Positions 2,881 to 6,449 of a stretch of DNA of 6,771 bases are shown one piece after another (position 1 is the stretch's first letter; each line of letters opens with the position of its first letter). The position numbers and the translations under genes were made by a program. The notes below the pieces were generated by a model. That model was not told the DNA's origin. It saw nothing but the letters and a program-made list of their open reading frames with translations, and ran no database searches. The DNA comes from Deltaproteobacteria bacterium. GTDB taxonomy: Bacteria; Desulfobacterota; DSM-4660; Desulfatiglandales; HGW-15. The DNA lies in assembly GCA_020342025.1 (NCBI GenBank), contig CP070840.1, positions 387,155 to 393,925 on the forward strand, read 5' to 3'.

Positions 2881-5250
2881 ATGGCCAAGAAACCATCCTA
2901 TGAAGAACTGCAACAAAGGGTCGAGGAATTGGAAAAAGAGGCTGCCAAGAGCAAGGCAGCAGAAGAGGCCTTGAGGGCGAGCGAAAAGAGGCTCTCAGAA
3001 ATTCTAGATGGAAGTTCCATCCCCACCTTCGTCATCGACGGAGATCACGTCATCACCCACTATAATCGAGCTATGGAGAATCTCACGGGTATTTATGCAA
3101 ATGAAATCATCGGAACCGAGAAACAGTGGATGACTTTTTATGCCAAGGAAAGACCAATTTTAGCTGACCTTGTTGTGGACAACGCCTCTGAGGAAGAGAT
3201 CGCCCGTCTATACGGGATCAAGTATCGAAAATCCGAGGTGATAGAAGGGGCTTACGAGGCAGAAAACTTCTTTCCCGATCTGGGGGAGAGCGGGCGGTGG
3301 GTTTTTTTCACCGCAGCGCCATTGAAAGATGCTAAAGGCAGGGTGACTGGAGCCATTGAGACCTTGCAGGACATCAGTCAGCGAAAGCAAGCCGAAGAGG
3401 CTCACCTGAAAGCGCAGAGACTTTACAGAACCCTCCTTGATTTCGCCCCATACCCTATCGTGGTCTTCACCCTAGACGGAAAGGTCTCCTATTTGAATCC
3501 TGCCTTTACGGAAAGCTTCGGCTGGACGCTTAAGGAACTCGAAGGGAAGCGGATTCCGTATGTTCCCCCTGAACTTCAAGAGGAGACCACAGAGAGCATT
3601 AAGAAGCTTTTCGAGGATAAGATCATACTGAGGCATGAAACGAGGCGGCTCACCAAGGATGGCCGCACGCTTGATGTGGTCATGCGGGCAGCGGTCTTCG
3701 CAGAGGATGAAGATGAGCCAGCCGGCGAGCTTGTTATCTTGAGAGATGTGACCGAGCAGAATAGGATTGCGAGAAACAACGAGGCCATGCTCCGTATCAC
3801 TATGGCCCTCCCAGAATACCCTGATTTAGAGGAACTTCTAGATTATATCAGCAGTGAGGTGATCACACTCTTGGATACAGAGGGAGCCGTTGTTGTTCTG
3901 CTTGACGAACAGAGACAGGAGATTTTCTTCCCCGGCGTCGCTTATGACGACACAATAACCAAGAGGAGGGTGAAGGCGGTTCGATTGCCCATACAACAGA
4001 TGGATCAGGTGGTGGCAGGCAAGGGCGCTAGGCTAGGGGAGCCGGTTATTGTCAACGATACGTCCAAGGTGGACAGATCTTATCCAATTCGAGATGAAAA
4101 GCTCGGATACGAGACGAAAAGTTTCCTCCAGGTCCCACTCAAGAGCGGTGATCGAATTATTGGGTTCTTGACGGCCATAAACAAGAAGCTGGGGCTTTTT
4201 GAACAGCCCGATGTTGAATTGCTCAATACCATCGCAGGAACGGTTGTGCTGTCCATTGAAAACGCGAGGTTTTCTGAAGAGCTAAAGCAAGCATACAGAG
4301 AGGTCAGCAGTCTGAACAGGGCAAAAGATAGGGTCATCAACCATCTGTCCCATGAATTAAAGACCCCTATCTCAGTGCTCTACGGCTCTTTTAGGATACT
4401 TGCAAAAAAATTGGCAGGATTGCCAGAAGAGGGCTGGAAGCCGACCTTAGAGAGGGCGCAAAGAAACTTACGACGCATACTGGAGATCCAGCACCAGACG
4501 GACGATATTATGCGTGAGAGACAATACAAGACCTATGACCTCCTTTCATTGATAATTGATGAATGTGCCGATGAGCTGGAGGTGCTCATTGCGGAGGAAG
4601 TGGGAGAGGGCCCTGTCATCGGGCGCATCAGGGAAAGGGTTGAAGAGATATTTGCTCCCAAGGAAATTGTTCCTGAAACAATTAAGTTAGATGAGTATGT
4701 GAAACAAAGACTCGAGCACCTTGAACCATCATTTTCTCACCGCCAAGTGGAAATCAGAAGCCGTCTTAAGCCGACTCCGCCTGCATATTTACCCCGAGAC
4801 GTCCTACAAAAGGTGATTGACGGTCTCGTAAGGAATGCCGTGGAAAATACGCCGGACCTAGGGAAGATGGAGATCCTGGTGCAAAAAAAGGGAATCGGAA
4901 GTGAGTTCGTCCTGCGCGACTACGGGGTGGGAATAACAGAAGAGCATCAAAGTCGCATATTTGAGGGTTTCTTTACGACCCGTGAAACGATGGATTACTC
5001 CACCAAAAGGCCCTTTGACTTCATGGCTGGGGGGAGAGGGGCGGATCTCTTGCGCATGAAGATCTTCTCCGAGCGTTATAATTTTAGGATAGAGATGAGA
5101 TCCTCCAGGTGTCGATTTATACCCCAGACGAGCGATATTTGTCCTGGCAGGATCAGCGAGTGTGACTTCTGTAAGACAGAAGAAGACTGTGACCAGTCTG
5201 GGGGAACCACTTTTACCCTCTATTTTCCCCCAGCTCCGGAAGCCAATTGA
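2881..5250 (+). CDS. Soluble PAS-PAS-GAF sensor histidine kinase with cysteine-rich C-terminal insertion
   Basis: A 789-residue two-component sensor kinase that autophosphorylates a His and passes phosphate to a response regulator. In order: a coiled coil (about 5-38), PAS1 (about 35-165), PAS2 (about 181-295), GAF (about 317-462), the dimerisation/phosphoacceptor domain with SHELKTP and His491, and an HATPase_c domain with N-box Asn652, G1 box D680-x-G682-x-G684, FEGFFTT, and a diverged G2 box A716-G-G-R-G-A-D-L724. About 80 residues with extra helices (about 525-605) separate the two kinase domains, more than usual. After the G2 box, Cys744, 754, 761, 764 and 770 form C-x9-C-x6-C-x2-C-x5-C just before SGGTTF. 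Only one other Cys occurs in the protein (DECADE). There is no membrane span or signal peptide, so it should sense a cytosolic cue. No receiver domain or response regulator gene is in the window, so it is an orphan here. The signal is unknown. Confidence 0.95.
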   Translation: MAKKPSYEELQQRVEELEKEAAKSKAAEEALRASEKRLSEILDGSSIPTFVIDGDHVITHYNRAMENLTGIYANEIIGTEKQWMTFYAKERPILADLVVDNASEEEIARLYGIKYRKSEVIEGAYEAENFFPDLGESGRWVFFTAAPLKDAKGRVTGAIETLQDISQRKQAEEAHLKAQRLYRTLLDFAPYPIVVFTLDGKVSYLNPAFTESFGWTLKELEGKRIPYVPPELQEETTESIKKLFEDKIILRHETRRLTKDGRTLDVVMRAAVFAEDEDEPAGELVILRDVTEQNRIARNNEAMLRITMALPEYPDLEELLDYISSEVITLLDTEGAVVVLLDEQRQEIFFPGVAYDDTITKRRVKAVRLPIQQMDQVVAGKGARLGEPVIVNDTSKVDRSYPIRDEKLGYETKSFLQVPLKSGDRIIGFLTAINKKLGLFEQPDVELLNTIAGTVVLSIENARFSEELKQAYREVSSLNRAKDRVINHLSHELKTPISVLYGSFRILAKKLAGLPEEGWKPTLERAQRNLRRILEIQHQTDDIMRERQYKTYDLLSLIIDECADELEVLIAEEVGEGPVIGRIRERVEEIFAPKEIVPETIKLDEYVKQRLEHLEPSFSHRQVEIRSRLKPTPPAYLPRDVLQKVIDGLVRNAVENTPDLGKMEILVQKKGIGSEFVLRDYGVGITEEHQSRIFEGFFTTRETMDYSTKRPFDFMAGGRGADLLRMKIFSERYNFRIEMRSSRCRFIPQTSDICPGRISECDFCKTEEDCDQSGGTTFTLYFPPAPEAN
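5110..5190 (+). other. Five-cysteine segment in the kinase ATPase domain
   Basis: Codes for residues 744-770 of the sensor kinase, from the RC of SSRC to the DC before QSGGTTF. The spacing is C-x9-C-x6-C-x2-C-x5-C. It holds five of the protein's six cysteines. The position, between the ATP-lid/G2 region and the last beta strands, means a bound metal or a disulfide could directly affect ATP binding. My impression, from memory and not checked, is that similar tails occur in other PAS kinases of sulfate-reducing bacteria. Confidence 0.8.
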
Positions 5251-5405: not shown

Positions 5406-6449
5406 ATGAAAGAGAAGATGCGGATTATGAGCGAAAAGCCTTTAAATGCAGAAACCCCCATCGAATCTCTACGTTCTTGGATTACGGCCAATGCCTTATT
5501 CTTTGACCGGAATCAGGGGGAAATCCCGGAAGAGCCCATTTCCCCATCCGACTGGAAACTACTCGTTGGAGGGGAAGTGCAAAATGAACTTCATCTAGAT
5601 TATGACCAAATAACGCATATGCCAAAAGCCATCGTTTCCAATACGCTTGAGTGTTCCGGCAATTCCCGGTCCCTGCTGGAAGAGAAGGCCAAGGGCAATC
5701 CTTGGACAATAGGGGGTGTGGGAAACGCCGTTTGGGGCGGTATCTGGCTGAAGGATATTTTGAATAAGGCTGGGCTGAAGGAGAGCGCGAAACATGTGAG
5801 TTTCCAGGGATTGGACAGACCTCTCGGCTCATCAGGGGTGAAGTTCGAACGCAGTATACCCATTGAAAAGGCCATGTCTTCGACCCTGCTCGCCTACGAG
5901 ATGAACGGTGAACCCCTCCCATTGAAACATGGTTATCCTCTGCGTGCCCTGGCACTGGGTTGGACAGGGGCCAACTGTGTGAAGTGGCTGTATAAGATAA
6001 CTGTCTTGGACCGACCTTTTGAGGGTTTTTACATGGATCAGGTGTATCGTGTATTTCAGAAAGGAGAGGATCCGAAGACGGGGAAAGTCGTAACAAGTAT
6101 GAAGGTGAAATCTATCATTACACAGCCATTGAATGATGAGGCGCTGCCTGTAGGGTCAGTGACCATATTGGGGGCAGCTTACGGGGGAGAAGCTGAGATC
6201 AAGAGCGTAGAGGTGTCCGTGGACAAGGGCAAAAGCTGGAGCTCCGCCACGTTTATAGGCCCGCACGAGTCCTTTGCCTGGAGGCAGTGGCAGTTTGTCT
6301 GGGACGGGACAGAGAAGGGGACTTATACCATCATGGCCCGGGCAATTGATACAAAGGGACGAACACAGCCCATGAAGGCCCAGTGGAATGTCTTGGGCTA
6401 CGGCAACAACGGGATCGAGGAGCATGCCATAACCGTCCGTATCACATAA
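5406..6449 (+). CDS. Sulfite oxidase family molybdopterin-dependent oxidoreductase, no signal peptide
   Basis: A 347-residue enzyme of the sulfite oxidase fold. Residues about 40-205 form the molybdopterin-binding domain and about 232-345 the Mo-co dimerisation (immunoglobulin-like) domain, so it is built like sulfite oxidases and not like MsrP, which lacks the second domain. Cys83 in T-L-E-C-S-G-N-S-R is the expected molybdenum thiolate ligand. Arg88 (Cys+5) and Arg35 (FFDRNQ) align with active-site arginines of vertebrate sulfite oxidase, from memory. VGNAVWGGIWLKDIL, KHGYPLRAL and GWTGANCVKWL are family signatures, and W-x-x-W-x-F-x-W at 292-299 belongs to the C-terminal domain. The usual RNH motif reads R35-N36-Q37. 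There is no Tat or Sec signal, no heme CxxCH motif and no adjacent cytochrome or membrane partner, so location is probably cytoplasmic and the electron acceptor unknown. Oxidation of sulfite or another small oxyanion is possible; the substrate cannot be told from sequence. Confidence 0.9.
   Translation: MKEKMRIMSEKPLNAETPIESLRSWITANALFFDRNQGEIPEEPISPSDWKLLVGGEVQNELHLDYDQITHMPKAIVSNTLECSGNSRSLLEEKAKGNPWTIGGVGNAVWGGIWLKDILNKAGLKESAKHVSFQGLDRPLGSSGVKFERSIPIEKAMSSTLLAYEMNGEPLPLKHGYPLRALALGWTGANCVKWLYKITVLDRPFEGFYMDQVYRVFQKGEDPKTGKVVTSMKVKSIITQPLNDEALPVGSVTILGAAYGGEAEIKSVEVSVDKGKSWSSATFIGPHESFAWRQWQFVWDGTEKGTYTIMARAIDTKGRTQPMKAQWNVLGYGNNGIEEHAITVRIT

Follow-up and report, generated by a model that had tools for sequence, protein, structure and literature searches.

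In the usual description of histidine kinases, the sensors vary while the engine to which they are attached stays the same. The 6,771-nt stretch of DNA analysed here (the window) encodes a histidine kinase with a cluster of cysteines close to its C-terminus, and raises the question of whether the engine itself can carry a metal site or a redox switch.

A cysteine-rich insertion in the catalytic domain

The gene (2881..5250 including the stop codon; plus strand, as are all features within it) encodes a sensor histidine kinase of 789 amino acids, an open reading frame whose Pfam matches, all above curated cut-offs, follow the order PAS, PAS, GAF, HisKA (residues 481-540) and HATPase_c (residues 641-784). 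The HisKA match, corresponding to the DHp domain (PF00512; 4321..4500), contains the phospho-acceptor His491, placed by its position in the motif HELKTP (4351-4353). The HATPase_c match, corresponding to the CA domain (4801..5232), contains GLVRNAVENT (4822-4851), RDYGVGI (4915-4935) and EGFFTT (4963-4980; IFEGFFTT in a longer reading), which are the N box, the G1 box and part of the F box. Residues 541-640 (4501-4800) form a long spacer between the two domains, for which two more helices were predicted (AlphaFold2/DSSP; model residues 82-105 and 109-122). The G2 box, AGGRGADL (residues 716-723; 5026..5049), was located by motif position and family alignment and is specific to the family described below, in which the commonest forms are AGG[KR]G[ALSF][DE]L. 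The canonical histidine-kinase G2 box (GxGLGL) with a short last hairpin is not present in this kinase. Because the domain is recognized as HATPase_c and has the N and G1 boxes, we take the altered G2 box and the long hairpin as a variant within the HATPase_c family.

Six cysteines occur in the protein, at positions 562, 744, 754, 761, 764 and 770. As the first-pass annotation had pointed out, five of them lie within 27 residues (C744-C770; nt 5110-5190), an arrangement that arose in 6 of 200,000 trials when six cysteines were placed at random over 789 positions. The same annotation had put them inside the ATPase domain, between the G2 box and the C-terminal end motif SGGTTF (5197-5214), and both placements hold, HATPase_c spanning the entire segment. 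In the AlphaFold2 model, DSSP assigns the penultimate CA strand to residues 736-742 (5086..5106) and the last strand to residues 775-782 (5203..5226). These strands place the cysteine segment within the last beta-hairpin, as some 30 residues inserted between the final two CA strands; at this point those non-member kinases that were readable make a short turn. This cysteine lobe (residues 743-772; 5107..5196) was delimited by motif, alignment, model and controls. It is modelled with a pLDDT of 90-95 despite having little regular secondary structure, and a separate prediction of the final 72 residues gives 91-94; an irregular loop predicted at such confidence is what a cofactor-held loop would be expected to show.

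The cysteine lobe is a family-wide trait

A protein search using residues 560-789 as the query returned 2990 matches at E ≤ 0.001, for part of which family membership was checked. Among the best 120 of these and the query, 117 of the 121 sequences could be aligned (four were dropped, having no alignment anchor); Cys744, Cys754, Cys761 and Cys770 are present in all 117 and Cys764 in 116. Since these first relatives were close and had been found with a query that held the cysteines, a Cys-free profile (A3, residues 655-742) was used to search 395 genomes of one phylum. It identified 106 full-length family matches with E-values of 2.2e-31 or better in 54 of the genomes, followed by two partial family copies (1.6e-18 and 7.3e-15) and by generic kinases from 2.5e-13. 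The 54 genomes each hold at least one to five full copies, numbers that are lower bounds because the 13 best first-look candidates were scored per genome. All 106 matches were retrieved and verified and are different sequences. The 42 residues past the profile contain seven cysteines in four of them, six in 13, five in 52, four in 36 and three in one (L220, which has an altered C-terminus); the other 105 thus have at least four in the lobe. Selection for the cysteines, which had been proposed from the single sequence, is supported by this outcome: the 106 were checked for homologues that share the G2 box and end motif yet lack cysteines, and none was found. Similar tails in deltaproteobacterial kinases, mentioned in the first-pass annotation, were recovered by the homologue searches. 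With a Cys-holding profile (A1) and a limit of E ≤ 1e-10, matches came from 61 of the same 395 genomes, and those close to the limit included generic kinases.

In total, 520 distinct members were collected, many of them with Cys-holding queries (P0187, a partial match, was left out), and 519 have a complete C-terminus. Counted over a fixed stretch, which may include cysteines of the last strand, there are seven cysteines in five members, six in 34, five in 276, four in 200 and three in four; at least four are therefore present in 515 of 519. Three of the remaining four members have three cysteines only, and the fourth combines three with an altered C-terminus. After 15 sequences with fewer than 160 residues upstream and one with a short tail had been dropped, a similarity cut reduced the 520 to 216 dereplicated members with a median pairwise identity of 35%. 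Cys744 (5110..5112) and Cys761 (5161..5163) are found in all 216 and Cys770 (5188..5190) in 214, as highly conserved as Asn of the N box and Asp and Gly of the G1 box; one Ser replaces Cys761 in a separate 251-member alignment, and for part of the conservation data the numbering was converted by setting C249 as Cys744. The two exceptions at Cys770 are L150, with a cysteine one residue later, and L220. Cys754 (5140..5142), which opens the sequence CPG, is present in 169 members and Cys764 (5170..5172) in 146, its place being taken mostly by V or I in the others. Both occur in 100 members, only Cys754 in 69, only Cys764 in 46 and neither in one. The expectation that the five cysteines are conserved together holds for the near-invariant Cys744, Cys761 and Cys770 but not for the remaining pair, one or both of which are missing in 116 of the 216. 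The conserved core is Cys744, Cys761 and Cys770 plus Cys754 and/or Cys764, rather than an all-or-none set of five. On a FastTree tree built without the lobe, parsimony gave 16 changes for Cys764 and three for Cys754, and mutual exclusion of their losses was not significant on this tree (P 0.26).

As controls we examined 24 kinases outside the family, namely 20 of the 21 generic matches from the Cys-free profile (G089 was omitted) and four other non-member kinases. The insertion was found in none of them; the last hairpin is a short turn in the 22 that were readable there, L239 being cut by the contig end and L256 not being located. One control, L248, has five cysteines past the G1 box, but they are scattered and accompany a short turn. 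The cysteine lobe is thus a real, strongly selected and family-wide trait. Altered copies of the kinase also occur: the C-terminus changes after Cys761 in L220 (G041:C82), the kinase module is broken into pieces in different frames in L151 (G301:C71), and a copy of the module has internal stops in L095 (G001:C1:4213443).

A domain scan of 77 full-length members (109 were selected) found HisKA and HATPase_c in all 77, GAF in 54-55 and PAS in 44. With GAF and PAS so unevenly represented and HisKA and HATPase_c in 77 of 77, the input domains therefore vary across the family and the output module stays constant. In this large family, it is the catalytic engine itself that has a near-invariant cysteine-rich lobe.

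A candidate cofactor site and its alternatives

From the cysteine pattern we infer that the lobe probably binds a metal cofactor. More tentatively, it may be an Fe-S cofactor site, most likely for a [4Fe-4S] cluster, within the CA domain of this PAS/GAF histidine kinase family, with Cys744, Cys761, Cys770 and one of Cys754 and Cys764 as the putative ligands.

The spacing C754-x6-C761-x2-C764-x5-C770 is that of the 17-position EndIII_4Fe-2S loop (PF10576), the [4Fe-4S] loop of endonuclease III and MutY. It occurs in 246 of the 519 members, as well as in four (L258, L259, L260, L265) of seven PF10576 loci taken from four genomes with kinases of the family. The likeness is one of spacing and not of membership, because PF10576 does not match the kinase lobes: in a Pfam scan of 119 lobes (E ≤ 10, HMMER filters) it is not one of the 20 families listed, and none of its matches in G339 lies at the five kinase loci of that genome. 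Unlike the PF10576 loop, the lobe has an additional invariant cysteine, Cys744, and either Cys754 or Cys764 may be absent. Since Cys744 is invariant even in members with the complete EndIII spacing, the ligand set of the lobe probably differs from that of the EndIII loop, and the difference between the invariant set (744, 761, 770) and the EndIII ligand set counts against the Fe-S reading. Other Fe-S Pfam families matched single members of the 119 lobes at chance level only, and no Pfam family or solved structure matches the lobe above chance.

A serious rival to Fe-S is structural zinc: a single Zn bound by four cysteines would staple the hairpin or form a docking surface for a response regulator or the DHp domain, without any sensing. 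Such lobes are common and require no redox function, the minimum of four cysteines in nearly all members would suit them, and the top Foldseek match of the lobe model, although not significant (E 1.2), is the Pyrococcus PF0610 protein, which has a rubredoxin-like Zn ribbon. However, the scanned stretch contains a single CxxC, and 68 of the 69 dereplicated members with Cys754 but without Cys764 have none there; lack of any CxxC pair is unusual for structural zinc. Zinc-finger Pfam models match one or two of the 119 lobes, which is chance level, and a zinc site leaves the fifth cysteine without explanation. We consider structural zinc possible but doubtful, and a [4Fe-4S] cluster somewhat likelier as the putative lobe cofactor.

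Alternatively, the lobe could be a metal-free thiol-disulfide switch, its cysteines pairing on oxidation and thereby changing kinase activity. SrrB of Staphylococcus aureus (PDB 6PAJ), described as having a redox-sensitive disulfide in its CA domain (PMC8534201, PMC8774646), is a precedent for redox chemistry at such a place, and five cysteines could form two pairs with one to spare. Three near-invariant cysteines with either of two others nevertheless fit a four-ligand site better, and a disulfide switch appears improbable. It is very improbable that the lobe is no more than a contact site for other proteins or part of the fold, with cysteines kept for packing: other residues in the region are highly conserved too (Arg743 in 245, Asp752 in 234, Gly756 in 246 and Phe778 in 236 of 251 members), but the three cysteines are retained where much of the lobe around them has diverged.

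If the cofactor is indeed a [4Fe-4S] cluster, it would gate or stabilize the kinase. Oxidation or loss of the cluster would alter the last hairpin, and the altered hairpin would affect the handling of ATP or the docking of the DHp domain. Autophosphorylation would then be gated by redox or iron state, with the PAS and GAF domains reading other signals; the alternative ligands Cys754 and Cys764 would permit a ligation switch. Direct gating of this kind is rather unlikely in our estimation, and the last hairpin may lie away from the ATP, which counts against it. Were it true, the kinase engine and not a sensor domain would read the redox or iron state, and with a redox-active cofactor every sensor input would pass a common redox or iron checkpoint. 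One small domain suffices for a direct test of the cofactor question.

Comparison with known metal- and redox-responsive kinases

Like the histidine kinase SrrB, the lobe kinases have candidate redox-type cysteines in their CA domain. In contrast to the lobe, the accounts of SrrB consulted describe one intramolecular disulfide that is not conserved across all staphylococci, and their sections on it mention no four- or five-Cys insertion (PMC8534201, PMC8774646); the comparison is one of descriptions. NreB and AirS are redox- or oxygen-sensing Fe-S histidine kinases whose clusters are described in the same sources as N-terminal (PMC8534201, PMC8774646), whereas the candidate site of the lobe kinases is in the CA domain. 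The 789-residue kinase has no N-terminal cluster of the NreB/AirS type, Cys562 being its only cysteine outside the lobe. In WalK, a zinc-binding PAS domain is reported as a cytosolic metal site that regulates a histidine kinase (PMC6624279), again in a different domain from the candidate site considered here. No description of a conserved four- or five-Cys insertion in a CA domain was found in the CC-licensed literature searched.

Genomic neighbourhood of the kinase

The kinase gene is accompanied in the window by genes for a Ser/Thr protein kinase carrying TPR repeats at its C-terminus (5-1804; Pfam), its frame open at the 5' end of the stretch, an adjoining LysM protein (1807-2556; Pfam), and a molybdopterin oxidoreductase (5406-6446; NCBIfam). 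The last is nearest to the SorA/SorT sulfite dehydrogenases, though it scores far below their NCBIfam cut-offs (for SorA, 263.9 bits with a cut-off of 600). The Pfam matches of the four genes in the window include no response regulator. Over 120 kinase loci no general neighbour group emerged, the largest group occurring in 23.

A gene that we presume to be of the Rex type lies near the kinase in 12 loci (L011, L037, L040, L047, L048, L054, L058, L066, L068, L075, L079, L205). In 12 of 13 cases it is located upstream of the kinase and on the other strand; the one example scanned, in L079, contains CoA_binding and Put_DNA-bind_N. Several of these loci also share genes for a zinc-ribbon DUF3426 protein and for a phosphoribosyltransferase. 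Because other neighbours are common to them as well, we interpret the Rex-type neighbourhood as synteny conserved within a single orthologous group, not as an independent association. Four loci without Cys754 (L136, L138, L139, L146) have one group of upstream genes on the same strand, at a median distance of 44 bases; the gene from L136, taken as the example, encodes a radical SAM protein, and genes of this group may be co-transcribed with the kinase.
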